From the NCBI GenBank assembly GCA_016927815.1, contig JAFGLY010000113.1:1-39954 (forward strand): 39,954 bases of DNA. The letters run 5' to 3'. The stretch comes from Deltaproteobacteria bacterium. GTDB taxonomy: Bacteria > Myxococcota_A > UBA796 > JAFGLY01. The notes beneath the pieces were generated by a model, which saw only the letters and a program-made list of their open reading frames with translations, was not told where the DNA came from and did no database searches. The number at the start of each line of letters is the position of its first letter. Position 1 is the first letter of the stretch. The position numbers were made by a program, and so were the translations under genes. Of this stretch, positions 4,300 to 31,512 are shown piece after piece.

Positions 4300-5180
4300 T
4301 CCGGAACGCGAGGGCCCGGGTGGGGCCGGACCTCGACAGCGAGCGGGTGGATCGAGCGCTGGCCGCCCTCCTCGGCATGAGCCGCGGCCTGGCCCGGCGC
4401 GTGGTGTCGCTGGGTGGCGCCTGGGTGGACGGCCGGCGGGTCCGAGTCCAGTCGCGCCCCGTGCGGACGGGCCAGGAGGTGGTGGCCTGGTGGGCCGATC
4501 CTCCGGAACCCGATCCGGATCCCCTGCTCCCGGCGGCGATCCTCCTGCGCGCTGGTGGCCTCGTGGCCGTGGACAAGCCTGCGGGCGTCCACTCCCAGGC
4601 GGCCCGGCACCGGGTGGCCGGCACGTTGCCGGACCTCGTCTCGACCCGGCTCGGTCTGCGAACGTGTCCGGAGCCGATCCACCGCCTCGATGCGGACACC
4701 TCGGGCGTGATGCTGCTCGGGACCGACCCTTTCGTGCGTGCCCGCGCGTCCGAGGCCTTCCGGCAGAACTCCCTTCACCGGACCTACCTGGCCGTCGTGG
4801 ACGGCGCACCCTCGGAGGACAGTGGCATCATCGACCTGCCCGTGGAACGACGGCCCGCATCCACCGGCTGGCGGGTCCTGGCTCGCGGACCCCGCGCGTC
4901 GCTGCTCCGTCTCGAGCCCACCACGGGCCGCACCCACCAGCTCCGCATCCACTGCAGGCAGGCAGGGTGGCCCGTCCTGGGGGATCGCCGGTACGCACCG
5001 TCCGGGGTCGCGAGCCGGGCGACGGGCCTGTGCCTGCACGCCTGGAGCCTGGAGCTCCCCGCGGATCTGCCGGGTGGACCCCGCCTGCTTCGGGCGCCCC
5101 TGCCCCCGGCGCTCCTCGCGACCCTCTGCTCGGAGGGCCTGCCCGTCCGGCGTCTCGAGGCCGACCCGGGGGTCCGGTGA
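4296..5180 (+). CDS. RluA-family pseudouridine synthase
   Basis: A 294-residue enzyme that isomerises uridine to pseudouridine in rRNA or tRNA. The N-terminal 60 residues form an S4-like RNA-binding domain (ERVDRALAALLGMSRGLARR followed by GGAWVDGRRV). The catalytic domain carries the class motif HRLDADTSG with Asp132 as the predicted nucleophile, the VAVDKPAGV entry strand and the TTGRTHQLRIH strand typical of RluA/RluC/RluD. The exact target base cannot be told from sequence. The ATG at 4296 overlaps the glnA stop as ATGA, and its own stop overlaps the next GTG, so all three genes are likely translated in a coupled way. Confidence 0.9.
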   Translation: MIRNARARVGPDLDSERVDRALAALLGMSRGLARRVVSLGGAWVDGRRVRVQSRPVRTGQEVVAWWADPPEPDPDPLLPAAILLRAGGLVAVDKPAGVHSQAARHRVAGTLPDLVSTRLGLRTCPEPIHRLDADTSGVMLLGTDPFVRARASEAFRQNSLHRTYLAVVDGAPSEDSGIIDLPVERRPASTGWRVLARGPRASLLRLEPTTGRTHQLRIHCRQAGWPVLGDRRYAPSGVASRATGLCLHAWSLELPADLPGGPRLLRAPLPPALLATLCSEGLPVRRLEADPGVR

Positions 5181-6238
5181 CCGAGCCCCCCTGGTGGCAC
5201 CTCGCGCAGAGCGGGGAGATGGATCGCCGGGCCGAGGCACTGGAAGCGCTCCTGTCGCCCTGCCGCCTCTGCCCCCGGGCCTGCGGAGCACTCCGCGACT
5301 CCGGGCAGTTGGGCGTCTGCCGGACCGGACCCGAGCCGGCCTTCGCCTCGGCCGCCCCGCACTTCGGCGAGGAGCCGCCGCTGTCGGGCACCCTTCTCCC
5401 CCGTCCCCCAGGCCTGGGCAACGTGTTCTTCACGGGCTGCAACCTGGCCTGTCTCGCCTGCCAGAACGCCTCCATCTCCCAGGGGCCGACCCCTGGGGCG
5501 TTCCGGGGCACCCATGCGCTCGCGGACGCCTGCGTGGCGCTCCAGGATCGCGGGTGCCACGCGATCGGATTCGTGTCTCCCACCCACCAGGCGCCGGGCA
5601 TCCTCAGGGCACTGGCCGAGGCGGGCCGCAAGGGCTTGAGGATCCCGGTGGTCTGGAACTCCAACGCCTGGGAGACCCTCGAGATGCTGCGCGTGCTCGA
5701 TGGTATCGTGGACGTCTACCTCCCGGACCTCAAGTACGCCGACGACGCGTCCGCCCGGCTCTGCTCCGGTGTGGACGGATACGTGGCGACCGCCCGCTCG
5801 GCGATCCTCGAGATGGCCCGACAGGTGGGTGTCCGGCCCGTGCTCGACGAGCGAGGGCTCCTCCGCCGCGGCCTCCTCATCCGCCTCCTGGTGCTCCCCA
5901 ACGGCCTTGCCGGCGTAGAAGACTCGCTCGCATGGATCGCCTCCGAACTGGGCACTGGGGTGGCGCTGTCCGTGATGTCCCAGTACTGGCCCGCCCACCG
6001 CGCCGCCGAGGAGCCGCTGCTGTCCCGCTCCCTGCACCGCCTGGAGTGGGACCGGGTGCTCGACCGGCTCGACGCCCTGGGCTTCGAGCACGGCTGGGTC
6101 CAGCCCTTCGAGGACGACGCCGCCGCCTGCTACCGTCCGGACTTCGACGACCCGGCGGGCCCCTTCCCCGACGCCGCGGACTGGGGGGACGGCAGCGACG
6201 TGTTCGCCCCGCCCGGAGGGGGGAGACGTCGTCCCTGA
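5177..6238 (+). CDS. PflX-type radical SAM protein
   Basis: A 353-residue radical SAM protein of the PflX group (COG1313 type), related to pyruvate formate-lyase activating enzymes. The [4Fe-4S]/SAM motif CX3CX2C is Cys88, Cys92, Cys95 in GCNLACLACQN, followed by ASISQG. An N-terminal Cys cluster (CRLCPRACGALR, then GVCRTG) marks this subgroup. Further family landmarks are GCHAIGFVSPTH, WNSNAW and VDVYLPDLKYAD. No glycyl-radical enzyme lies nearby, so the partner is unknown. Start is GTG 5177, overlapping the previous stop. Its last 109 bases overlap, on the opposite strand, the end of the molybdenum hydroxylase gene. Confidence 0.88.
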   Translation: MTEPPWWHLAQSGEMDRRAEALEALLSPCRLCPRACGALRDSGQLGVCRTGPEPAFASAAPHFGEEPPLSGTLLPRPPGLGNVFFTGCNLACLACQNASISQGPTPGAFRGTHALADACVALQDRGCHAIGFVSPTHQAPGILRALAEAGRKGLRIPVVWNSNAWETLEMLRVLDGIVDVYLPDLKYADDASARLCSGVDGYVATARSAILEMARQVGVRPVLDERGLLRRGLLIRLLVLPNGLAGVEDSLAWIASELGTGVALSVMSQYWPAHRAAEEPLLSRSLHRLEWDRVLDRLDALGFEHGWVQPFEDDAAACYRPDFDDPAGPFPDAADWGDGSDVFAPPGGGRRRP

Positions 6239-9018
6239 TCGGCGTGCGGAACGCCGCCGGAGACCCGAGACGCGCCGAGCGCCTCCCGGACGACCTCCGG
6301 CGTCATGGGTAGCGCACGGATCCGCTCCCCCGTGGCCGCGGCCACGGCGTTGGCAATCGCGGGCGCCACGGGGAGGATCACCGGCTCCCCCACGCCCTTC
6401 GCGCCGAACGGCCCGTCGGGGTCCGGATCCTCCACGATCACGGAGGCGATCTCGGGAACGTCCGGAGCCCGGGGCACCCGGTACGTGTCGAGGCCACGGG
6501 TGAGGGGCACCCCCGAAGCGTCGTACCGATGCGCCTCGAGGAGCGCGAATCCAAGGCCCTGAGCCACGCCACCGGCCATCTGGCCGCGGATCATGCGCGG
6601 ATGGATGGCCCGTCCGACGTCGTGGGCGGCCACGTACCCGACGACCTTCACCCGTCCGGTCGCGGGCTCCACGTCCACCAGGGCCACGTGGGCGGCCCAG
6701 GCATAGGTCCGGTAGGGGTCGCCCTGGCCGGTCGCGGCGTCCAGCGGATGGGTGGAAACCCTTACCCGCGCCCTACGCTCGAACGGACCCTCCGGGGTCG
6801 ACGCCAAGGCGGCGAGGGTGCACAGGTCGAGGAGCACGGTTCCGTCTTCGGTCGCGCCGCGGCCGTCGACCGCGATCCGCTCCACCGGGCGACCCGTTGC
6901 GGCCGCGGCAATGGAGAGGAGCCCGTCCTCGAGTCGCTGGCAGGCCTCGCGCACGGCCTCGCCCGATACGTACGTCTGGCGGGAGGCGACCGTGGATCCC
7001 GAGTCGGGCGTCTCGTCGCTGTCGCCGGTGCGGATCGAGACCTGGTCCCGCCCCGCGCCCAGCACCTCTCCGGCGATCTGCTGGAACACGGTGAGGGCGC
7101 CCTGTCCGTAGTCCACGGCGCCGCACCGGACCTCGAAGGTCCCGTCGGCCGCGAGCGAAGCCGTGGCCGACCCGATGTCCGGGATCCCGTGTCCGTAGCC
7201 GATCCCGTAGAAGATGGTGGCGAGGCCCCTGCCGCGGAGGTGTCCGGCCGGAGGCGGAGGGAGCGCGGCCTCCACCTGTTCGGCCTTCGCGAGCGCCCGG
7301 TCCAGGCAGGCCGCGAGGCCAGAGGACGCCCCCAGGACCTGGCCCGTGGCGGTCGCCGCACCCGGGTGCAGGTGGTTGCGCCGCCGGAAGGCCACCGGGT
7401 CCATCCCCACCGCCTCGGCGCACTCGTCGACGAACGACTCGCCCGCGAAGGCCACCTGAGGGACTCCGAATCCCCGAAAGGCCCCCGAGATCCCGTGGTT
7501 GGTGTAGACCTGCCGCACGTCCACCCGGACGTGGTCCACCGCGTAGGGTCCGGCCGCATGCACCAGCGCCTTCAGCGCGACGTTGGGCGCCCAGGAGGCA
7601 TAGGCCCCCGTGTCCAGGAGCACGTCGATCTCCAGCGCACGGATCCGTCCGTCCGCCTCGAGGCCGGCCCGGCACGTGATCCGCGCGGGATGACGCTTGG
7701 TGGTCGCCACCTGGGACTCCTCGCGGCTCCAGGCGATCCGCACGGGCCGGCCGGCCACCCAGGCGCCGAGCGCAGCGTGGTGCTGGGCGTACAGATCCTC
7801 GCGGCTGCCGAAGGCCGATCCCATGGGTGGCTGGATCACGCGCACGGCCCGGCGGGGCAGGCCCAGCACCCGGGCGATCCGGTACCGATCGAAGAAGACG
7901 TTCTGGGAGGGGGCCAGCACGGTGATCTCGGTCGTGCCGCCCTTCGTGCGAGGCCACGCGAGGGCGATCTCGGGTTCGAGGCAGACGTGCGCCTGCGCGG
8001 GCGTCCGGTAGGTACGCTCGATCACGATGGGGCTCGCACCGGTCTCGGCCGGGGCGTCCCCCTTCCTAAGCGCGAGGTGGACGAGGAGGTTGCCACCGGG
8101 GTGCAGCACCGGCGCTCCCGCCTCGAGGGCCTGCTCCGGGTCGAGCACGGGCGGGAGCGGGTCGGCCTCGACCTCCACGCGCTCGGCCCCCTCCCGGGCG
8201 GCCTCCGGCGTCTCGGCGAGCACGACGGCCACGGCCTCCCCCCAGAAGCGCACCCGGTCCTTGGCCAGCACGGGCTGGTCCTGGATCGCATTGCCCCACA
8301 AGAGCGTCCCGGGCACGTCCCGCCAGGTGAGCACGTGGACCACGCCGGGGACCGCGAGCGCAGCCTCGGTACGGATCCCTCTCAGAGCGGCGTGGGCGTG
8401 GCGGGCACGGACGGTGACCCCGTGCAGGCACCCGGGGGGCCAGACCAGGTCGGCCGTGTAGCGGCACCCCCCCGTGACCTTCGAGACCGCGTCCACACGC
8501 GCAGGATCGGCACCCACGCGGTCGGGCTCGGGAGGTGGAGGAGGGGCACCCGAGGCCGCACGCAGGACGGCGTCCACGATCGGCTGGTACCCGGTGCACC
8601 GACACAGGTGTCCTGCGAGCCGGGCGCGGACGGCCTCGCGGCTCGTGGCGCCGCCCTCGCCCAGGAGCGCCGAGGCCTCCAGGATCATGCCCGGCGTGCA
8701 GTACCCGCACTGGACGGCGTCCTCTGCGACGAAGGCCGCCTGTACGGGCGAGAGGGCCTCCGGCTGCCCCAACCCCTCCACGGTGACGATCGTCCGGCCG
8801 TGGGCCCGGAGTGCCGGGACCCGGCAGGACCGTACGGGCGCACCGTCGAGCAGGACCGTGCAGGCGCCGCACTCCCCCTGTCCGCACCCCCGGCGCGCGC
8901 CCGTGAGGCCGAGATCCTCGCGGAGGACGTCGAGCAGGAGGCGATCGGCGGGGATGCGGAGGACGTGCTCGACGCCGTTGACGACGAAGCGGAGATCGAA
9001 GGGGTCGACTGAGGGCAT
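6130..9018 (-). CDS. Fused 2Fe-2S/molybdopterin aldehyde or xanthine oxidoreductase
   Basis: A 962-residue xanthine oxidase-family molybdenum hydroxylase in one chain. Residues 1-80 are a plant-type 2Fe-2S domain (Cys45, Cys50, Cys53, Cys65); residues 90-155 hold the second 2Fe-2S cluster (Cys104, Cys107, Cys139, Cys141); the rest is the molybdopterin subunit. Active-site marks include PPMGSAFGSRED, SGAFRGFGVPQ and the catalytic glutamate Glu878 in GVGEPV. There is no FAD domain between the two parts, an arrangement like the Desulfovibrio aldehyde oxidoreductase, so electrons would go to another carrier. The substrate is not predictable. The last ~45 residues are Pro/Gly/Ser-rich, unlike the family, and come from DNA overlapping the end of the pflX-like gene. 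ATG at 9018. Confidence 0.9.
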   Translation of the reverse strand: MPSVDPFDLRFVVNGVEHVLRIPADRLLLDVLREDLGLTGARRGCGQGECGACTVLLDGAPVRSCRVPALRAHGRTIVTVEGLGQPEALSPVQAAFVAEDAVQCGYCTPGMILEASALLGEGGATSREAVRARLAGHLCRCTGYQPIVDAVLRAASGAPPPPPEPDRVGADPARVDAVSKVTGGCRYTADLVWPPGCLHGVTVRARHAHAALRGIRTEAALAVPGVVHVLTWRDVPGTLLWGNAIQDQPVLAKDRVRFWGEAVAVVLAETPEAAREGAERVEVEADPLPPVLDPEQALEAGAPVLHPGGNLLVHLALRKGDAPAETGASPIVIERTYRTPAQAHVCLEPEIALAWPRTKGGTTEITVLAPSQNVFFDRYRIARVLGLPRRAVRVIQPPMGSAFGSREDLYAQHHAALGAWVAGRPVRIAWSREESQVATTKRHPARITCRAGLEADGRIRALEIDVLLDTGAYASWAPNVALKALVHAAGPYAVDHVRVDVRQVYTNHGISGAFRGFGVPQVAFAGESFVDECAEAVGMDPVAFRRRNHLHPGAATATGQVLGASSGLAACLDRALAKAEQVEAALPPPPAGHLRGRGLATIFYGIGYGHGIPDIGSATASLAADGTFEVRCGAVDYGQGALTVFQQIAGEVLGAGRDQVSIRTGDSDETPDSGSTVASRQTYVSGEAVREACQRLEDGLLSIAAAATGRPVERIAVDGRGATEDGTVLLDLCTLAALASTPEGPFERRARVRVSTHPLDAATGQGDPYRTYAWAAHVALVDVEPATGRVKVVGYVAAHDVGRAIHPRMIRGQMAGGVAQGLGFALLEAHRYDASGVPLTRGLDTYRVPRAPDVPEIASVIVEDPDPDGPFGAKGVGEPVILPVAPAIANAVAAATGERIRALPMTPEVVREALGASRVSGGVPHADQGRRLPPPGGANTSLPSPQSAASGKGPAGSSKSGR

Positions 9019-9076
9019 GGGGAACGGGAACTCCCGGGGACCGAACCCGACAGGGACGACATCGGCTCGATCGGGC

Positions 9077-9082
9077 TATCCT
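9077..9082 (+). promoter_or_regulatory. Possible -10 box for the beta-repeat gene
   Basis: TATCCT lies 29 bases before the ATG at 9112, in the 93-base divergent gap after the molybdenum hydroxylase start. The upstream -35 region is poor. It may drive the plus-strand genes from 9112 to 13080. Confidence 0.3.
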
Positions 9083-9111
9083 GTTCGAGGACCCACCTTC
9101 TGGAGCGCCCC

Positions 9112-9534
9112 ATGCAGCTTCTCGTGGCTCCCCTCCTCGTCGCCCTCGCGCTCGCTGGATCGGCCATGACCGTCCGCAGCGGATCGGGTTCCTCCATCGG
9201 TCGGATCGACGAGGACGGTACCGTCCGCAACGCCTCGGGCTCGTCCGAGGGCCGCATCGAGGCCGGCGGCACGGTGCGCGACCGCTCGGGATCCACCATC
9301 GGCCGCATCGATGCGAACGGCACCATCCGGGGGTCCTCGGGCTCCACCGTGAGCCGCGTGGACGAAGACGGCACGCTGCGCGACGCCTCGGGAAGCGCGG
9401 TGGGTCGCCTGGACGGCTGCACGGTCCGCAACCGGTCCGGATCGTCCACCGGCCGGTTCGACGGCTGCACGACGGCGGACCTGCACACCATGGCCGCCTA
9501 CCTCGTCTTCTTCACGCCGCTCCACCACCGCTGA
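9112..9534 (+). CDS. Secreted '5-fold beta-flower' type repeat protein
   Basis: A 140-residue protein with a short signal-like N-terminus (MQLLVAPLLVALALAGSA), then six tandem repeats of 16-17 residues with the pattern T-V/I-R-x-x-S-G-S-x-x-G-R-I/V-D-x-x-G, and a short hydrophobic C-terminus (MAAYLVFFTPL). The alternating turn and strand pattern matches the small proteins named five-fold beta-flower, known mainly from structures of Bacteroides proteins of unknown role. It is probably periplasmic or surface-located. The last two repeats end in Gly-Cys, giving two cysteines that could form a disulphide. It sits 48 bases ahead of the HEAT-repeat gene on the same strand. No function is known. Confidence 0.7.
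   Translation: MQLLVAPLLVALALAGSAMTVRSGSGSSIGRIDEDGTVRNASGSSEGRIEAGGTVRDRSGSTIGRIDANGTIRGSSGSTVSRVDEDGTLRDASGSAVGRLDGCTVRNRSGSSTGRFDGCTTADLHTMAAYLVFFTPLHHR
9169..9468 (+). repeat. Six tandem ~51-bp coding repeats
   Basis: Four units of 51 bases and two of 48 encode the TVRxxSGSxxGRID repeats of the beta-flower-like protein. The DNA copies have diverged while the protein pattern is kept, so this is an old protein repeat rather than a recent expansion. Confidence 0.75.
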
Positions 9535-19520: not shown

Positions 19521-19978
19521 CGGGCCTCCTTGAGGCGTCGGGCGGATGTCGCCGCTTCCCTCACCCGCTGGTCGAGGCGCTTCAAGGCATGCGCCACCTC
19601 CATCGCCGCCGCTGCCCCCTTGGCGAGGCGATCCGCGGGGGCGTGGTCCAGATCGGGCAGGAGCGCCCGCAGCCCCTCCATGGCGGCGTCCACGGCGGCC
19701 ACGTCCGGATCGTCCGCGAGCCCCGCGAGGGACGGCCTCAACCGATCCCACAGCGCCGGAGCGGACTCCAGGCGATCTCCCTGGCGACGCGTCGCCCCCA
19801 CGTCCGCCCGAAGGGCGGCCCGTACCGCCTCCGGATCCGGATCCGGAGGCAGCCAGCGGAGCTCCATCGCCACGTACTTGCCGAGATCGTGCCGGACGCG
19901 GGCGACCGCCTCCACCAGGGACGGGTCCGGAGGTGTGCAAGGCCGCGTCTTGCGGGATCGTGCGGGTTCTTTTATCAT
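19502..19978 (-). CDS. Small helical protein with HDLGKY motif, possible phosphotransfer protein
   Basis: A 158-residue cytoplasmic protein that I do not recognise as a named family. It has no signal peptide or membrane helix, and it reads as mostly alpha-helical with many Ala, Leu and Arg. His30 in ARVRHDLGKYVAME resembles the H-box of histidine kinases or a phosphotransfer helix, and is similar in kind to RHEVLKH of the TPR-kinase in the same operon. It is the first gene of this operon, and its last 19 bases overlap the start of the sigma-54 activator. ATG 19978 has GGAGGAG upstream. A role as an intermediate in the phosphorelay is an inference from position and motif only. Confidence 0.6.
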   Translation of the reverse strand: MIKEPARSRKTRPCTPPDPSLVEAVARVRHDLGKYVAMELRWLPPDPDPEAVRAALRADVGATRRQGDRLESAPALWDRLRPSLAGLADDPDVAAVDAAMEGLRALLPDLDHAPADRLAKGAAAAMEVAHALKRLDQRVREAATSARRLKEARWPASS

Positions 19979-20058
19979 CGTCGCCGGGCTCCTCCTCGAC
20001 GCGTCCTCCCCATCCTATGCGGTCCTCGCAGACCTACCCTGGTCCACCGGGTCGATAC

Positions 20059-22824
20059 ATGGCATCATCGGCCGATTCCTCTTCGACGCGTCCCCCGCTG
20101 ACCCCGGTGCCGCGCCCGGCGACCAACGAGCTGAAGCGTCGCTACGAGGAACTCCTGGCCGAGCTGAAGCTGGAGCCCGGCGTGCGGGTCAGCCTCTCGT
20201 GGATGTTCGAGGAGGCCCTCCGCTCCGATCCGGCCCTCTCCGTCCCCTCCCACGCTGCCGGAGACAGCACCCAGCCGGCTCTGCGCGCCAGCGATTCCGC
20301 CATCTCGGCCCACTCGCCCATCGAGGCGAGCGACGACGTGGAGCCCCCTCCTCCCGCGGCCCACTTCCCCCAGCTGTCCCTGCCGGGCCGATACTGGTAC
20401 CGCGGGTTCATCGGCGCCGGATCCATGGGCGAGGTCCACCGGGTCTACGACCGGGCCCTCAGGCGTCCACTGGCCATGAAGGTCTTGAGACCCGATCTGC
20501 CCAGCCCCGACCTCGCGGTCTTCCGGTTCATCGAGGAGGCCCAGGTCACCGCCCAGCTGGAGCACCCGGGCATCGTACCGGTCCACGACATCGGCCTCCT
20601 GCCCGACGGCCGCTGGTTCTTCACCGCGATGGAGGCCCGGGGACGGCGCCTCACCTCGGCGATCCGCGAGGTCCACGAGGTGCGCCTCCAGCACGGCACC
20701 TTCGCCGAGACGCCGGGGGGCTGGAGCTTCCGCCGCCTGGTCAGCGCGTTCCGGACGGTCTGCGAGGCCGTGGCCTACTCCCATGCCCGAGGGGTCGTGC
20801 ATCGCGACCTCAAGCCCGACAACATCCTCGTGGGCGAGTACGGCGAGGTGCTCGTCCTCGACTGGGGCCTCGCCCGCCCCATGCGTGCCGGACCCGACCG
20901 CAAGCTGCGCGCCGAGCCGGTGCGGTCCGATCGGCAGGAGGAGGAGGCCTTCGCGACCCGAGCCGGGATCGTGGCCGGCACACCGGCCTTCATGCCCCCC
21001 GAGCAGGCCCGGGGCGAGGTGGATCGGCTCGGGCCCTGGTCCGACGTGTACGCCCTGGGAGGGGTGCTGTACGAGGTGATCTTCGGCAGCCACCCCTACG
21101 AGGGCATGACAGCCCGCGACGTCCTGGAGCGGGTCAAGCGGGGGCCGCCTCCGTTCCCGCCCGCGCCCTGGGCCCCGATGCCCATGCTCCAGGCCTGTCG
21201 ACGGGCGCTGCGCTTCAACCCCGAGGACCGGTTCCCCGATGCAGGGGCCCTGGGCGCCGAGATCCACGCGTGGCTCGAGGGCGCGCTGCAGCGCGAGAAG
21301 GCCCAGGAGGCCGTCCAACAGGTGCGCGGTCGGATCCCCAACCTCTCCCGTCGGTACCTCGAGGCGCTGCGCGTCCGGGAACGGGCCCGGCGGGCGGTGT
21401 CCCGCCTGGCGCCGAGCACCGCCCTCTCCGAGAAGGAGCGTTCGTGGGAAGCCGAGGAGCGCGCCGAGCGGGAGCTGGAGTCCGTGGAGGACGCCTTCCA
21501 GGACGTGGTGCAGCAACTCCAGGCCGCCCTCCTGCAGTGCCCCGACCTCCTCGAGGGCCGCGCCGCCCTGGCCGATCTCTACCGCAACCGTCACGACGCC
21601 GCGGCGGCCTTCGGACAGGCCGAGAGGGCCCGACAGTTCGAGCGCCTCCTCCGGGAGTACGACATCGGCACCCACGCGGCCTTCCTGGCGGGCCTGGGTC
21701 GGATGTCGCTGACCTCGGATCCTCCGGCCACGCGCATCGTGGTGGAACGGTTCGAGATCAAGGGCCGCCGCCTCAGTCCCCAACCGGTGCAGGTGATGGA
21801 CCGGGTGCCTGCCGGCGACTTCCAGCTCCCCGCCGGTTCCTACCTCCTCGAGATGGAGGCGCCGGGCCGGGTGAACGTCCGGTACCCCATCCACCTCCCA
21901 CGGGAGGGCACCTGGACGGCCGCGCCTCCGGGCCAGACGGAGCCCCGCCCCGTCTTCCTCCCCCCCGAGAACCTCGTTCCGGACGCCGCTGTCTACGTGC
22001 CCGAGGGGTGGGCCATCTTCGGCGGCGACGCCGAGGCTCCGGGCAGCCCCCCCCGACGCAGGCTCTGGATGTACGGCTTCACCATCGCACGGTTCCCGGT
22101 GACCCACCAGGAGTACCTCGCCTTCCTGGACGCCCTGGCCGCCTCGGACCGGTTGGACGAGGCCGCGGACCGGGTCCCCCGCCTCGCGGGCCCCCCCGAC
22201 AGCGACCCGCCGGCGATCTACCGGGTCGGGCCCGACAACCGGTTCCGACCGGTGGACTCCACTCCGTTCGGCCCCATCCGGCCCGGAGCCCCGGTCACGC
22301 TCGTCCGCTGGTCCGACGCGGCGGCGTACTGCCTCTGGCTCCGGGCGCGCACGGGGCTGCCCTGGCGCCTCGTCACCGAGGCCGAGCGCGAGAAGGCCGC
22401 ACGGGGTGTGGACGGCCGCTGCTTCCCCTGGGGCGACCACGCGGATCCGTCCTTTGCGTGCAGCCGCGACTCCATGCTCGACCGGCCCGGTCCTCCGTCG
22501 CTGGACGCCTTTCCGGTCGACAACAGTCCCTACGGAGTCCACGGCCTTGCCGGGGGCTCCGCGGACTGGTGCATGGACACCCTGCAGGCGGACGGCCCGG
22601 CCCACCAGGGGGCCATGGTGTCGACTCCGGCCCCCCTGACGCCCGAGGATGCGGAAGCCGGCGTACAGGCGACGATCCGGGCGGTACGCGGCGGGTCCTT
22701 CGACGCACCGGACCGCGTGGGGCGGGCGGCGGCCCGTGCGGGGTTCCCGGCCACGATGCGCCGTCCGGGTCTCGGCTTCCGCCTGGCTCTCTCGCTCGAA
22801 GACCTGCTCTCCTCCCGAGGGTGA
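20059..22824 (+). CDS. Ser/Thr protein kinase fused to a formylglycine-generating-enzyme-like domain
   Basis: A 921-residue soluble protein in three parts. A Hanks-type kinase (about residues 110-430) has a glycine loop GAGSMGEV, catalytic Lys141 (AMKVL), HRDLKPDN with Asp250, DWGLA in place of DFG (Asp268) and a PPEQARG end of the activation segment. A helical linker follows, with a PEGA-like beta segment (VPAGDFQLPAGSYLLEMEAPG). The C-terminal part (from about 640) is a SUMF1/FGE-type fold: FTIARFPVTHQEYLAFL, WRLVTEAEREKAARG, SPYGVHGLAGGSADWCMD, VRGGSF. No membrane helix separates the parts. The start is unsure: ATG 20017 is an alternative, but 20059 leaves more promoter space from the divergent gene. 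Substrates are unknown. Confidence 0.85.
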   Translation: MASSADSSSTRPPLTPVPRPATNELKRRYEELLAELKLEPGVRVSLSWMFEEALRSDPALSVPSHAAGDSTQPALRASDSAISAHSPIEASDDVEPPPPAAHFPQLSLPGRYWYRGFIGAGSMGEVHRVYDRALRRPLAMKVLRPDLPSPDLAVFRFIEEAQVTAQLEHPGIVPVHDIGLLPDGRWFFTAMEARGRRLTSAIREVHEVRLQHGTFAETPGGWSFRRLVSAFRTVCEAVAYSHARGVVHRDLKPDNILVGEYGEVLVLDWGLARPMRAGPDRKLRAEPVRSDRQEEEAFATRAGIVAGTPAFMPPEQARGEVDRLGPWSDVYALGGVLYEVIFGSHPYEGMTARDVLERVKRGPPPFPPAPWAPMPMLQACRRALRFNPEDRFPDAGALGAEIHAWLEGALQREKAQEAVQQVRGRIPNLSRRYLEALRVRERARRAVSRLAPSTALSEKERSWEAEERAERELESVEDAFQDVVQQLQAALLQCPDLLEGRAALADLYRNRHDAAAAFGQAERARQFERLLREYDIGTHAAFLAGLGRMSLTSDPPATRIVVERFEIKGRRLSPQPVQVMDRVPAGDFQLPAGSYLLEMEAPGRVNVRYPIHLPREGTWTAAPPGQTEPRPVFLPPENLVPDAAVYVPEGWAIFGGDAEAPGSPPRRRLWMYGFTIARFPVTHQEYLAFLDALAASDRLDEAADRVPRLAGPPDSDPPAIYRVGPDNRFRPVDSTPFGPIRPGAPVTLVRWSDAAAYCLWLRARTGLPWRLVTEAEREKAARGVDGRCFPWGDHADPSFACSRDSMLDRPGPPSLDAFPVDNSPYGVHGLAGGSADWCMDTLQADGPAHQGAMVSTPAPLTPEDAEAGVQATIRAVRGGSFDAPDRVGRAAARAGFPATMRRPGLGFRLALSLEDLLSSRG

Positions 22825-22836
22825 TGGCCCCGACCG

Positions 22837-23718
22837 TCACGGATGGGCGGCGAACGCCAGCACGCCCTCCTCGAGCACGGCCTCCGCCCCGTGCACGAAG
22901 GCGCAGTTCCGGCCACCGTGGCCGACGGGGAGATCCACGACGACCGGTACGCCCAGCGGCCCGAGGTGATCGAGGACCACGTCCATGAGGCTCCAGCCCT
23001 CCCCGGCCGGCGCCTCGCACTCCACGAAGCTGCCCAGGGCCACGCCCTTGACACCATCGAGCGCACCCGAGGCGACCAGTTGCGCGAGGAGCCGATCCAC
23101 CCGGTAGGGCGCCTCGGCCACCTCCTCCAAGAGCAGGATGCAGCCACGGGCTCGGATCGCATCGGGCGTGCCCGCCAAAGAGCCCAGGGTGCAGAGGTTC
23201 CCCCCCACCAGCGGGCCCCGGGCCCGCCCGGCCACGAGCACCGTACCCCGCCAGGGACCGGCCACCCCCTCCAGGAGCAGGCGCCGGACGGCGTCGCGGC
23301 TCGTCCCATCCGCGTGGTCCACGAGGCTGTGCAGCACCGGGCCATGGATCGCACCCGCGATCCTGCGGCGGTGCATGGCCTGGAAGAGCGCCGTGGCGTC
23401 CGAGAAGCCGACCACGGGCCGGGGCACGACCCGATCCCAGCGGACGTGGGGCAGAAGGCGCAGGATCCCGTATCCACCGCGGGCGAGCCAGGCGGCGTCG
23501 AGCGAGGAGTCTCCGAGCGCCCACTCGAGGTCCGCCCGTCGTTCCTCGTCGGTGCCCCCCAGGTACCTCCATCGACGCCCCAGGTGAGGCGCGAGGACCG
23601 GGTCGAACCCCCACCCGCGGACGATCTCGAGGCTCGCCAGGAGGCGTTCGGGGTCGTGGATGCCGGACGGCCCGAACACGCCGATCCGGGCGCCGGGCGA
23701 CAGGGGAAGGAGCGCCAT
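22837..23718 (-). CDS. S66-family LD-carboxypeptidase-like peptidase
   Basis: A 293-residue protein of peptidase family S66, whose best-known members (LdcA) cut the last D-Ala from peptidoglycan tetrapeptides during recycling; others process the antibiotic microcin C. The triad region is readable: LARGGYGILRLL, then the nucleophile Ser in VVGFSDAT, a glutamate in ILLLEEVAEAPYRVDRLL, and the histidine in LPVGHGG near the C-terminus. No signal peptide is seen, so it is likely cytoplasmic. I chose ATG 23718 (GAGGG upstream) over an ATG at 23739, which adds seven residues. It converges on the kinase gene with a 12-base gap. Confidence 0.85.
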   Translation of the reverse strand: MALLPLSPGARIGVFGPSGIHDPERLLASLEIVRGWGFDPVLAPHLGRRWRYLGGTDEERRADLEWALGDSSLDAAWLARGGYGILRLLPHVRWDRVVPRPVVGFSDATALFQAMHRRRIAGAIHGPVLHSLVDHADGTSRDAVRRLLLEGVAGPWRGTVLVAGRARGPLVGGNLCTLGSLAGTPDAIRARGCILLLEEVAEAPYRVDRLLAQLVASGALDGVKGVALGSFVECEAPAGEGWSLMDVVLDHLGPLGVPVVVDLPVGHGGRNCAFVHGAEAVLEEGVLAFAAHP

Positions 23719-23807
23719 GGCGGGAAGATACCCTCGCACGGGGCCGGGCGCCGCCCGCGCCTGCAGGCCCGCGCCCGGCTACATTCCGGGCCTGTCCGGA
23801 GATCGCC

Positions 23808-25484
23808 GTGTCGCCGAAGACCGCCCGATGGGCCCGACTCGCCGGTTGGACCCTCGCCCTGGCCGTGCTGGTCGTGCTCTACGTGGTACTCCAGCCGCAC
23901 ATCGTCGGCGACCGTAGGTTCAACCGAGATCGTTCCGAGACCTTCAAGGTATGGATCCTCGGCTTCGGCATCGGCCTGGTGGCCTTGAGATGGGCCTGGC
24001 ACCGCTGGCTGGAGCCCCGTGCCAGCTCGCTGACCCGCTGGAGCAGCCGGGCGCTCGCGTTCCTGCTCCTGGCCCTCTGCTTCACCGCCGTGGCCAACTA
24101 CGGGCGCTTCGGGACCTACGTGATCCGGGATCGCGTGGACGTCTACGACCTCATCCACTACTACCTGAACGCCCGGTACTTCGACGAGCTCGGCTACTAC
24201 GACCTCTACCCCGCCTGCATTCTGGCCGACCTCGAGAACGGCGGGCCGTGGTTCAAGTCCAACCCCCCCACCTTCCAGGACCAGGACGAGAACGGCTACG
24301 CGTTCCGGCCGATCTCCGAGGGCGTCCAGAAGGGCCTGACCGTGAAGGAGAAGTTCACGCCCGAGCGTTGGGCCTCCTTCTCCCACGAATTCCTCGTCCT
24401 GCAGCGGGAAACCTACGGACTCACCCTGGACTACTGGTGGCAGCTCGTCAACGACCACGGCTTCAACGGCTCACCCGCCTGGGTCGGGTACGCCTCGCCG
24501 ATCGCCAAGCTCGTGCCCGTGGAGTCGGTGAAGCTCCTGGGGTACCTCGACCTGGTGCTGCTGCTGGGCGCCGTGGGGGCGTCGTGGTGGGCGTTCGGAG
24601 GATGGTCCGCGGGGTTCCTCCTGCTCTTCCTCGTGACCACCTACAGCACCCGGTGGCCCACGGTCACCTGGGCCTTCCTGAGGTACGACTACGCCGTGGC
24701 CCTGATCCTCGGTGCCGCGTTCGTGCGCAAGGGAAAGGGGTTCTGGGCGGGCCTCTCGACGAGTCACGCCACGGCCATGCGCATCTTTCCTCTGCTCTGG
24801 AGCTTCGGCCCCGCCGTCCAGGGGCTGTGGCAGCTCGTCCGCCACCGTCGCCTCGAGCGGTTCGCCCTGCTCTTCCTCGCAGGTTTCGTGGTCTGGCTGT
24901 TGGCTCTGGAGGCCAACTTCGCGATCCAGTACGGGTGGGACGCCGTGGTCTCCTACTGGACCGACATGGCGACGCACATGGAACCCGCGAACCTGTCGTC
25001 CCGCCGGGAGGGGCTCGCCATCGCCCTGGCCTATCGGGGCGAGTTCGACGCAGGGTGGTCCGAGGCCCGGATCAACCGGGTGGCGTTCCAGGAACCGATC
25101 CGGATGGTCGTGGCGGCACTCCTCCTGCTGCCGCTGGCCTGGGGCCTGCGCCGGGCGGATCGGGCGGAGGCCTACGCGCTCGGCTTCATCCCCTTCTTTG
25201 CCCTGACCACCGCCTCCTACTACTACTACGTCGTTCGGGCGCCGCTCATCGCCGTCTACGGCTCGGACCTGCGCCGCGGCCGGCACGCGCTGGCGCTCGG
25301 GTTCCTGCTCGCGGTGGACCTGTTCAGCAACTTCGCCGAGCAGCACCTGGGTGGGAACCGGATCTTCGTCATCGGGTGGCTCGGCTGGTCCCTCCTCGCC
25401 TTCTGTATCGGCACGATCGGCGTCCTCCTGTGGGAGGACGCCCATGCACGCCCCAAGACCGCCCCTCTTCCGGAGCCGTCATGA
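23808..25484 (+). CDS. Multi-spanning GT-C-like membrane glycosyltransferase
   Basis: A 558-residue integral membrane protein with about ten predicted helices (first ones: WTLALAVLVVLYVVL, VWILGFGIGLVALRW, ALAFLLLALCFTAV). After the third helix comes DVYDLIHYYLNARYFDELGYYDLY, seen here as DLIHYYLNARYFDELG. Acidic residues in this first large loop, followed by a sugar-lipid-like topology, are typical of GT-C glycosyltransferases using polyprenyl-phosphate sugars (GT87/PMT-like). Family assignment is tentative. Start is GTG 23808 with GGAG upstream. The stop overlaps the ATG of the AMMECR1-like lipoprotein gene, so they probably act together. The donor and acceptor are unknown. Confidence 0.7.
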   Translation: MSPKTARWARLAGWTLALAVLVVLYVVLQPHIVGDRRFNRDRSETFKVWILGFGIGLVALRWAWHRWLEPRASSLTRWSSRALAFLLLALCFTAVANYGRFGTYVIRDRVDVYDLIHYYLNARYFDELGYYDLYPACILADLENGGPWFKSNPPTFQDQDENGYAFRPISEGVQKGLTVKEKFTPERWASFSHEFLVLQRETYGLTLDYWWQLVNDHGFNGSPAWVGYASPIAKLVPVESVKLLGYLDLVLLLGAVGASWWAFGGWSAGFLLLFLVTTYSTRWPTVTWAFLRYDYAVALILGAAFVRKGKGFWAGLSTSHATAMRIFPLLWSFGPAVQGLWQLVRHRRLERFALLFLAGFVVWLLALEANFAIQYGWDAVVSYWTDMATHMEPANLSSRREGLAIALAYRGEFDAGWSEARINRVAFQEPIRMVVAALLLLPLAWGLRRADRAEAYALGFIPFFALTTASYYYYVVRAPLIAVYGSDLRRGRHALALGFLLAVDLFSNFAEQHLGGNRIFVIGWLGWSLLAFCIGTIGVLLWEDAHARPKTAPLPEPS

Positions 25485-27871
25485 AGCACCTCCCCCGCCT
25501 CCTCGCCTGGAGCATCCTGGTCCTCGCGCTCGGATCCTGTGGCGACTCCCGGAAGGTCGCGCGCACCTCTGCCGGCATCGTCGTGACGGGCACGACGTTC
25601 GAGGAGCGCCTCGACAGCGCGGTCCTACGCGCGGCCAAAGGCACGCTGGGCACCGAGGCGAAGAAGGCGCTCCAGGGCGTGCCGGGAGCGGTCCTGGTGG
25701 ACGCCCCCTCCAAGGTGACGGGCCTGCCCGAGGGCACGGAAGTCAAGCCGCTCTTGGGCGAGGGGCCGCTCGGCGAAGCGCTGTTCGGCACCGACGAGGA
25801 GGCCGCGGCCCGCAAGGTCCTGGAGTCCGGATCCCGCGTGGTGATCGTGCACTGGCGGCTGCGCTCCTCGGTGGACCGAGGCGGGTCGGTCCTGGCCAAG
25901 CTCTACCACCACTCCGACCTGTCCTGGTTCTCTCTCTTCCGCGTCACCGACGAGCTGTTCCTCTACCGGGTGCTCGACCAGCCCGTGGAGTTCCCGCCTG
26001 CCCTGGCCGCGGTCTGCATCGCGGCCTTGAGGTCCACCCTGTCCGGCCAGGGTCTGCCGCCCCTTCCGGACGTGAAGGCGCGCGAGGGCGCCTGGGATCT
26101 CGTCGCGTCGGTCCGTGGGCAGGGACGCGAGCTGGCCGTGGGCCTGGCGCACAGCTCGGACCTGCGCAAGGCCATCCTGGAGCTGGCCTCCGACCTCGAG
26201 CGAGCCCATCGCCGGAACATGGAGATCCATGGCTTCCCGCCCCTGAAGGACCACATCCCGGATCTCTCCATCGAGATCCATCGGATCACCGAGCTGGCCG
26301 TGGTCGAACCCCGTGGCGAGCAGGACCTGGAGGGGCTCTGGGAGCTGGGAATGGACGGCGCGATCATCCGTGATTTCGAGAGCCGGAAGTCCGGCGTCTT
26401 CCCGGGCGCCGTTGCCTACACGCGCGCGTTGCGCACGGCCGACGACTTCCTGATCGAAGCTGCGGCCTTCCACCGGTTGGACGCCCGGCGGCCCTGGCGC
26501 GACGACGCCATCCTCCTCCAGATGTTCCGCACCCACCACTTCCGGGAGTACCCGGGCAAGGGCATCGTCTACCTGTTCCGGGGGGTGCCGCCGGTGCCCA
26601 TCGAGGCAGTCACCCTCCGCAACACGGAGCGAGCCCTCCTCCGGGCGGCAGAGTGGTACCTCGCCAACCAGAGGAGCGACGGCTCGGTCACCTACAAGTG
26701 GTGGCCCGCCGAGAACCGGGAGTCCAACGAGTACAACATCGTCCGCCACACGCTGGCCACGTGGAACCTGTCCCAGGCCTGGCACATCGATCCCCGGCCC
26801 GAGTTCCTCGAGGGTGCGGCCAGGGCCCAGGACTACACGCTCCAGTTCCTGGTCCGCGAGGGGGACATGGCCTACTTCACCCACCAGAACAACACCAAGC
26901 TCGGAACGGTGGTGGTGGGGCTCCTCGGGATGATCGAGCTGGCCCGCATCCAGAACGACCATGGAAACGACGATCTGATGCGACAGCTCGGCGCCTTCGT
27001 GAAGTACATGCAGGTCCGAGAGGGGCCCGAGAAGGGCAGGTTCAAGGGCTACCACGTGCCCGAGGACCACCCCTACTACGACGAGGAGAACGACATCGTC
27101 CCCGGCGAGGCGGCCCTGGCGCTCACGCAACTGGCCGAATGGCTCCAGGATCCCTCCTGGCTCGAGCCCCTCCGGGACTACTGGACCTACTACCAGCCGT
27201 GGTTCCGCGAGAAGGCCGCCCGGAAGCACACGGATGCCCCCTGGCCCGCCTGGATCTACGACAACCAGACCCGTCTGGATCTCGTGGAGTTCGGCCCATG
27301 GACGGTCATGGCCGCGAACGCCCATCACCGGGCCACCAACGATCCGACCGTGGCGGCGTTCGGGCTCGAGGTGGCACGGTGGATGATCGAGTCGTACCAG
27401 TACGACGAAGCCCGCACGCCCTGGCGGGACTACCTCGGCGGCTACTACAAGCTCCCACACGAACTCCCGGCCATGCAGGCGTTCTGCTACGCCGAGGGCA
27501 CCGCCGCGGCCTACCAGATGGCCCTCCGGGCCGCGCCGGAGCAGGCGCCGTTCTTCGAGAAGGCCACGCGGTCCACGGTCCGGTTCGCCTACGTCATGCA
27601 GTTCGACGACTGGAACACGTACCCCTTCTCCCGACCGTGGGTGGTCCGGGGGGGCATCCGGTACGCGATGAACGAGACCAAAGTTCGAATTGACTACGTC
27701 CACCATGCCTTTTCCGCCATGTACCAGTACCTCGTGGGTGCCCGCGCGGATCCCGCACTGCCTGAGGGCGTAAAGGCCGACGTACCCCTGCTCGACGACC
27801 AGATCGCCGCGGCCCGGGCCCGGCTGGAGCACGCTCGCGCCAGCCAGGGGTCGAAGGCGTCGGAGAACTGA
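25481..27871 (+). CDS. Lipoprotein with AMMECR1-like domain and helical-toroid-like domain
   Basis: A 796-residue lipoprotein (signal peptide, lipobox ALGSC, Cys20). Residues about 180-365 resemble AMMECR1 proteins: FPPLKDHIPDLSIEIHRI, then LEGLWELGMDGAIIRDF, GVFPGAVAY and a last segment with DDFLIEAAAF. The hallmark LRGCIG of AMMECR1 is not present. Residues about 385-770 are helix-rich, with many Trp, Tyr and acidic residues (RAAEWYLANQRSDGSVTYKWW, read as EWYLANQRSDGS; YDEENDIVPGEAALALTQLA), and resemble six-hairpin (alpha/alpha)6 toroid enzymes such as glycoside hydrolases or sugar epimerases. ATG 25481 overlaps the GT-C gene stop. A role in a glycan or lipid-linked sugar outside the cytoplasm is inferred from this pairing. 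Domain calls need a profile search. Confidence 0.7.
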   Translation: MKHLPRLLAWSILVLALGSCGDSRKVARTSAGIVVTGTTFEERLDSAVLRAAKGTLGTEAKKALQGVPGAVLVDAPSKVTGLPEGTEVKPLLGEGPLGEALFGTDEEAAARKVLESGSRVVIVHWRLRSSVDRGGSVLAKLYHHSDLSWFSLFRVTDELFLYRVLDQPVEFPPALAAVCIAALRSTLSGQGLPPLPDVKAREGAWDLVASVRGQGRELAVGLAHSSDLRKAILELASDLERAHRRNMEIHGFPPLKDHIPDLSIEIHRITELAVVEPRGEQDLEGLWELGMDGAIIRDFESRKSGVFPGAVAYTRALRTADDFLIEAAAFHRLDARRPWRDDAILLQMFRTHHFREYPGKGIVYLFRGVPPVPIEAVTLRNTERALLRAAEWYLANQRSDGSVTYKWWPAENRESNEYNIVRHTLATWNLSQAWHIDPRPEFLEGAARAQDYTLQFLVREGDMAYFTHQNNTKLGTVVVGLLGMIELARIQNDHGNDDLMRQLGAFVKYMQVREGPEKGRFKGYHVPEDHPYYDEENDIVPGEAALALTQLAEWLQDPSWLEPLRDYWTYYQPWFREKAARKHTDAPWPAWIYDNQTRLDLVEFGPWTVMAANAHHRATNDPTVAAFGLEVARWMIESYQYDEARTPWRDYLGGYYKLPHELPAMQAFCYAEGTAAAYQMALRAAPEQAPFFEKATRSTVRFAYVMQFDDWNTYPFSRPWVVRGGIRYAMNETKVRIDYVHHAFSAMYQYLVGARADPALPEGVKADVPLLDDQIAAARARLEHARASQGSKASEN

Positions 27872-30696: not shown

Positions 30697-31512
30697 TCAC
30701 CGCTGGCTCGCGACCTTGTGGTCTCGGACGTCCACGATCTGCCCCCGAGGGTCCAGGAGGGTGAGACGGTCCACCTTGTTGTTCCAGACCGGCACGCGGC
30801 TTCCCAGGTGGATGCGGATCTGCCGCTCCGGGTCCACCTGGTGCTCGCCCGCGCCCGAGCGGAGCTCGAAGGTGTGGCCGGGCGGAATCACCACCTCGGG
30901 CAGGCGAAAGGACCGTCCCCTCGCGTTGGTGACGCGGTAGCCCGACAGGTTCTGCGGCGTGTCCGTGATGTTGCAGATCCGGGCGTACTCGGCGTTGGGG
31001 TCCTCGCGCTCGTCTCCCCGGCCGTTTGCGTGGAACGAGGTGATGTGGAAGGGCCCGCGGAAGTGGGGATCGGACCAGATGCCGATCCGCTCGCCACGAG
31101 CGGCCGCCTGCGCCTCGAGGAGCGGCGCGACATCGCCCTCGATCGGGGGCAGGAGGAACACGTGCCCCAGGCCCAGGCGCACGAGGTGCGTCTCGAGGGA
31201 CTTCCCGTCCACGAGGACGTCGGCCACGAGGCGGCCGTACCCGTCCCGCACCACCGATCCGTACCTGAGCTCGACCATCCGCCCCAGCAGGAAGGCCTTG
31301 GCAGCCTCCCGGGCCTCCTCTCCGAACGGCTCCTTGGGACGCAGCTCCGTGGTGTTCACGCCCTTGAGCCGGACGCGCTCTCCGTTCTCCAGTGTGTAGG
31401 TGTCCCCGTCGTAGACGCGCACCACCCGGGCGGACGCGGGCGGGGTCTCGACGTCTGCCGCGATCCCATGCCCTGCGAGGGCGAGGAGGACGAGGAGGCA
31501 GATCAGGCGCAC
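30697..31512 (-). CDS. Secreted staphylococcal-type nuclease with lamin-tail domain
   Basis: A 271-residue exported protein. The signal peptide (MRLICLLVLLALAGHGIAA) is followed by a thermonuclease fold (about residues 28-150) with the catalytic set Arg48, Glu56 and Arg94 and the metal-site segment VYDGDTYTL, in line with staphylococcal nuclease. Residues about 158-260 look like a lamin tail (LTD) beta-sandwich: ARICNITDTPQNLSGYRV, FRLPEVVIPPGHTFELRSG, VWNNKVDRLTLLD. LTD domains join bacterial surface enzymes to other structures. Start is GTG 31512. The gene lies between lipA and the PAP2 gene with small gaps. It may degrade DNA or RNA outside the cytoplasm. Confidence 0.85.
   Translation of the reverse strand: MRLICLLVLLALAGHGIAADVETPPASARVVRVYDGDTYTLENGERVRLKGVNTTELRPKEPFGEEAREAAKAFLLGRMVELRYGSVVRDGYGRLVADVLVDGKSLETHLVRLGLGHVFLLPPIEGDVAPLLEAQAAARGERIGIWSDPHFRGPFHITSFHANGRGDEREDPNAEYARICNITDTPQNLSGYRVTNARGRSFRLPEVVIPPGHTFELRSGAGEHQVDPERQIRIHLGSRVPVWNNKVDRLTLLDPRGQIVDVRDHKVASQR

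Follow-up and report, generated by a model that had tools for sequence, protein, structure and literature searches.

An exported lipoprotein with a divergent AMMECR1-like domain and a predicted (alpha/alpha)6 toroid, encoded beside a GT87-like membrane protein

In contig JAFGLY010000113.1 of Deltaproteobacteria bacterium (Myxococcota_A; assembly GCA_016927815.1), of which positions 1 to 39,954 were analysed and are here called the window, a forward-strand gene at 25481..27871 (start ATG, stop TGA) encodes an exported lipoprotein of 796 residues, P0001, in which a divergent AMMECR1-like domain, recognised by profile comparison, is followed by a predicted (alpha/alpha)6 toroid of the type found in carbohydrate enzymes. 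The parts of this lipoprotein are of known kinds; for their combination, an AMMECR1-toroid fusion, no description was found in the literature searched, which is not proof of absence. The first four bases of its gene, ATGA at 25481..25484, are also the last four of the preceding one, as had been read from the DNA letters at the outset; that gene, at 23808..25484 on the same strand (start GTG, stop TGA), encodes a 558-residue GT-C-like polytopic membrane protein, distantly GT87-like. On balance, and with some reserve, we favour an enzyme tethered to the envelope whose substrate is an exported glycan that the GT87-like protein helps to build, and whose binding module is the AMMECR1-like part. After synthesis in the cytosol P0001 would be exported, would receive its lipid at Cys20 and would be anchored to a membrane face of the envelope, where the toroid would act on an envelope polysaccharide or glycolipid as a glycosidase, lyase or epimerase while the AMMECR1-like part may bind substrate or a partner; in the window’s lineage the GT87-like membrane transferase from the overlapping gene would contribute to building the glycan. 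The overlap of the genes, their co-occurrence, the pattern of conserved residues, the export signal and the two folds are shown. That the toroid is catalytic, that its substrate is of this sort, that the AMMECR1-like part binds and that the two proteins share a pathway is in each case the most likely reading. An envelope glycan system was also what the initial annotation, made from the letters of this DNA, had suggested, and we infer it likewise.

The lipoprotein signal noticed initially lies at 25481..25540, where a hydrophobic stretch precedes the lipobox L17-G-S-C20, as in bacterial lipoproteins, and a lipobox no more than 50 residues from the start used is found in 15 of 20 orthologues, so that most members of the family carry an export signal. 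A search with P0001 found relatives in 80 of the phylum’s 284 genomes and, within the order, in 50 of 63; they range from full-length orthologues of 40-60% identity to distant ones of 25-35%, whose alignment starts at the AMMECR1-like part and reaches the C-terminus, and genomes of distant classes hold several paralogues each. The viral contigs searched held no relative. The window’s genome also encodes another AMMECR1-toroid paralogue, a distant one (G000:C154:30207-31895; L041:1696-3915), which is anchored by several transmembrane-like segments, not by a lipobox, and four distant fusions (L095, L097, L098 and L099) have an extra N-terminal domain that is thioredoxin-like by eye. The N-terminal domain of P0001 itself, residues 28-192 (25562..26056), has no Pfam match, and comparison by hhalign with AMMECR1, with GT87-like proteins and with C3, a polytopic protein described below, gave at most 0.4% in every case; a resemblance to the soluble end of GT-C enzymes was considered and rejected, as hhalign gave it no support. 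A structure prediction for full-length P0001 from one sequence reached a predicted local distance difference test (pLDDT) of 36 and was not used.

The aromatic helical domain that had been taken for an (alpha/alpha)6 fold spans residues 374-766 (26600..27778), and by profile, model and Foldseek it is a toroid of carbohydrate-enzyme type, with twelve predicted helices; like the AMMECR1 layout, this helical region stands well above chance. A profile of 27 toroid domains matched 4mu9 (E 4e-9), GH76 mannanases (8e-7), cellobiose 2-epimerases (1e-6) and GH127 (5e-5). Single toroid homologues exceed Pfam cut-offs, for C5-epim_C (PF06662) with 24.6 against 23.3 and for GH127 with 25.4 against 24.9, the C5-epim_C match spanning one helix pair only and being absent from P0001. 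The AlphaFold2 model of the domain has 12 main helices (mean pLDDT 66, predicted template modelling score 0.75), and Foldseek places closest to it GH76 (E 1e-4), Lin0763 (3k7x; uncharacterised) and a cellobiose 2-epimerase, then a polysaccharide lyase and GH127. Matches in the PDB with E <1e-3 are to GH76 enzymes, Lin0763 and a cellobiose 2-epimerase; the top 50 are mostly sugar-active enzymes, those to GH76 and AGE with a probability of 1.00.

When a residue is counted as conserved if present in at least 23 of the 27 sequences, and is placed on helices by a model of moderate quality, 13 conserved residues fall on even helices and a single one on an odd helix (p = 0.0015), and 12 of the 13 are within the first dozen residues of their helix. 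The N-terminal ends of inner helices are where (alpha/alpha)6 enzymes usually have their active site, and the modelled pattern, with conserved residues gathered at the same end of alternate helices, is active-site-like. Nine polar residues (Y405, R422, H423, E543, D650, E672, R736, D738 and H742) are near-invariant across proteins that are about 20-30% identical, and the most conserved polar motif, R736-x-D738-Y-x-x-H742 (27686..27706), is at the N-terminus of helix 12. Could the toroid nevertheless lack catalysis and serve as a ring for binding or scaffolding, in a protein that acts as an envelope receptor or assembly factor and consists of two worn-out enzyme folds? The AMMECR1-like part is without its conserved core, so that one half already shows activity loss, and in one homologue with an intact AMMECR1 domain (L091:7382-9181) the toroid has lost both R-H and R-x-D-x-x-x-H; however, near-invariance of nine polar residues at such low identity, in the usual place of an active site, leaves a ring of this sort unlikely. 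For cellobiose 2-epimerase the catalytic residues are H184, E187, H243 and H374 in 3VW5, and for GlcE-type C5-epimerase E499, Y500, N510, Y560 and Y578 (PMC13308652). H423 and H742 are conserved in the toroid, whose alignment with AGE falls short of the whole barrel, and are at most candidate counterparts of the catalytic His of AGE.

The neighbour’s GT-C-like character, also proposed initially, is supported by the GT87 profile (PF09594), which matches 4 of 8 orthologues of the 558-residue protein (best E 1.9e-5), the window protein itself giving no match. The family has 12 transmembrane-like segments by family-averaged hydropathy, and after the third of them an invariant loop with D111..D114..H117-Y-Y and E127-L-G-Y..D132-L-Y. 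Like GT87 it is polytopic, with an early Asp-containing loop and then HYY..ELGYYDLYP, and it differs in that the window protein falls below the profile. Within the order 27 genomes contain a strong orthologue, defined by E <1e-80, and all 27 also have the lipoprotein. In the sole other genus of the family among the genomes examined (L002, contig G195:C391) the same gene pair is found, with 57% and 60% identity to the window pair and the same overlap, the first gene ending at 5950 and the lipoprotein gene starting at 5947. Is this, then, an operon of the order at large? Adjacency is limited to two of its approximately six families, on the same strand in the window’s family and divergent in the other (G064, G171 and G078), and therefore the pairing of lipoprotein and GT87-like protein hints at a functional link and does not amount to a conserved operon; a strict two-gene operon throughout the order was rejected, the pair being unlinked in most genomes. 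On conservation of the pair, which the initial annotation had proposed to test, the result is weaker than its claim.

The toroid might also be an enzyme with a substrate that has nothing to do with the GT87-like product, for instance peptidoglycan, lipopolysaccharide or a foreign polysaccharide, the overlap with the GT-C gene being accidental. With linkage in two families only, different neighbours elsewhere and multiple paralogues within single genomes of distant classes this has some appeal, but GT87-like orthologues never occur in the order without the lipoprotein and adjacency survives a change of gene orientation, and we consider it improbable. In the other families the lipoprotein gene has as neighbours polytopic C3, HTTM, GreA and RluA. 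C3 is a conserved polytopic protein without Pfam match whose gene adjoins that of the lipoprotein in several families (L106:7680-9518, L124:7866-9722, L111, L112, L113); by eye it is GT-C-like, and hhalign shows no relation to the GT87-like protein.

Several points weigh against the favoured reading of an envelope-tethered enzyme on a glycan that the GT87-like protein helps to build. The AlphaFold2 model of the toroid comes from two sequences, P0001 and L002, and has loops of pLDDT <50. The Asp-Asp pair of GH76 aligns by HMMER, weakly and with moderate certainty, to F604-G605, so that membership of GH76 was rejected, and as the pair is absent at the aligned place the reaction is not readable from a known family. 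A Pfam search with P0001 alone, up to E 1, returned zero matches. The two genes are adjacent in 5 genomes and apart in the other 22 that have both, and in 23 genomes the lipoprotein occurs without the GT87-like protein. The co-occurrence value (27 of 50 genomes with the lipoprotein against 0 of 13 without; Fisher p = 2.8e-4) ignores shared ancestry.

For residues 196-372 (26066..26596) profile-profile comparison shows a divergent AMMECR1 fold, homologous to the canonical one, and the AMMECR1 layout claimed initially stands well above chance; the outcome named at the outset as a refutation, absence of any significant AMMECR1 or toroid match, did not occur. With P0001 by itself there is little to see: PF01871 does not reach its curated cut-off, NCBIfam gives a hint of TIGR04335 (AmmeMemoRadiSam protein A; E 0.074, residues 252-354), a single-protein sequence search of the PDB gave nothing usable, and a carbonic anhydrase match to the single sequence (E 0.003), making no structural sense, was gone in the family profile. 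Profiles of the narrow family are too alike internally to reach AMMECR1 or toroid structures; for residues 196-372 such a profile scored 68.6% (E 4.6e-5) in hhalign against canonical AMMECR1 and 98.1% (E 9.5e-14) against Pfam-positive fusions. The whole fusion family scored 99.5% (E 1.6e-22) against canonical AMMECR1, and still 98.7% (E 2.6e-16) when every Pfam-positive member had been removed, while the controls (N-terminal domain, toroid and GT-C protein) all gave at most 0.4%. Searched against the PDB, a profile of 28 fusion proteins matched exactly the three solved AMMECR1 structures, first 1vaj (PH0010, E 7.8e-16), the Pyrococcus structure proposed at the outset for comparison, and also 1zq7 (MM0484) and 1wsc (ST0229). 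A hidden Markov model of canonical and fusion sequences, from which the window family was excluded, matched residues 253-356 of P0001 at E 2.5e-8 in a set of 20, shuffled and reversed decoys giving 0.5 or worse. The Pfam AMMECR1 model, run independently across the same genomes as the P0001 search, exceeds its cut-off in open frames that also contain the toroid of the window protein: seven exported chains (L091:7382-9181, L094, L095, L096, L097, L099 and L056) score 25.2-83.9 bits against a cut-off of 25, and the full-length homologue L044 lies below it at 22.2 bits (E 1.1e-4). Chance, or a generic alpha/beta similarity, would accord with the empty Pfam search, the faint TIGR04335 hint and the modest score of the narrow family, but it is very hard to credit beside the wider hhalign scores with their controls, the retrieval of all three structures and the full-length intermediates that connect both ends of the family.

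What has been kept of AMMECR1, and what lost? Colinear with the canonical family are a VFVTL strand leading to the G-x-D-G turn (residues 290-293), an LP strand, the FL helix and a W-containing end, and the turn is retained almost throughout the AMMECR1-toroid family. The LRGCIG core is missing, as had been noticed initially: its place, residues 216-221 (RELAVG; 26126..26143), reads -RELAV in the alignment, that of DPRF reads EIHG and that of LPQV reads PGAV. With these three motifs lost, the domain of P0001 is therefore homologous to AMMECR1 without being its equivalent in function, and it differs further from the small cytosolic proteins of that family in being exported, with a lipobox, within a 796-residue chain. 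An intact core of LRGCIG form occurs solely in L091:7382-9181 (WRGCVS) and L094 (IRGCQS), both of which retain DKRF. At L091 (G009:C35) lie two overlapping tandem genes for AMMECR1-toroid lipoproteins, 5079-7382 and 7382-9181. In the first the AMMECR1 domain is worn and the toroid well kept; the second pairs an intact AMMECR1 domain (83.9 bits) with a worn toroid, and it looks as though two activities had been divided between two genes. Part of this arrangement recurs at L050 (G003:C162).

AmmeMemoRadiSam and MEMO-AMMECR1 fusions likewise have an AMMECR1 domain within a fusion, but there the partner is MEMO instead of a toroid and LRGCIG is intact. The window genome’s own canonical AMMECR1 domain is fused to a MEMO domain (G000:C123:210-704; L001:192-1910), and upstream of one of its possible starts lies a hydrophobic stretch that may represent a signal peptide. 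AMMECR1-bearing open frames of 500-650 residues, which match MEMO fusions in size, are common in the phylum. With the (alpha/alpha)6 enzymes (GH76 alpha-1,6-mannanase, cellobiose 2-epimerase/AGE, GH127, GH88 and the GlcE C-terminal domain) the window toroid shares the predicted twelve-helix barrel and conserved residues at inner-helix N-termini, with GH76 and the 2-epimerases as the best fold matches, whereas identity to them is about 13-14%. We know of no AMMECR1 domain in the GH76, AGE, GH127, GH88 or GlcE families.

Upstream of the gene pair, on the opposite strand at 22837-23739, is an LD-carboxypeptidase gene, and downstream a gene for an RCC1-repeat protein. Elsewhere in the window one open frame (19546-22824) combines a Ser/Thr protein kinase domain with an FGE-sulfatase (formylglycine-generating-enzyme-like) domain, and another (30697-31512) has a lamin-tail domain fused to a Staphylococcal nuclease domain behind an apparent signal peptide.

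AMMECR1 is present from bacteria and archaea to humans and its function is described as unknown, while a missense change in the LRGCIG of the human protein is linked to disease (PMC5502304). Earlier domain work (Burroughs 2019, via PMC7159879), as far as it is represented there, links AMMECR1 to MEMO and radical SAM proteins, not to exported toroids. Exported AMMECR1-toroid fusions with graded loss of the AMMECR1 core supply a guilt-by-association clue, to carbohydrates, and tractable test proteins, and so the fusion family is a way to learn what AMMECR1-type domains do, besides adding an as yet unassigned (alpha/alpha)6 family to the envelope biology of these bacteria. A bolder idea, which we hold tentatively and think doubtful at present, is that AMMECR1 folds in general are glycan- or substrate-handling modules. 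If true, the same reading would embrace the tandem genes, in which the AMMECR1 core survives in one copy and the toroid core in the other, and the fusion family, with its AMMECR1 domains intact or worn, would reveal the general role of an orphan family.

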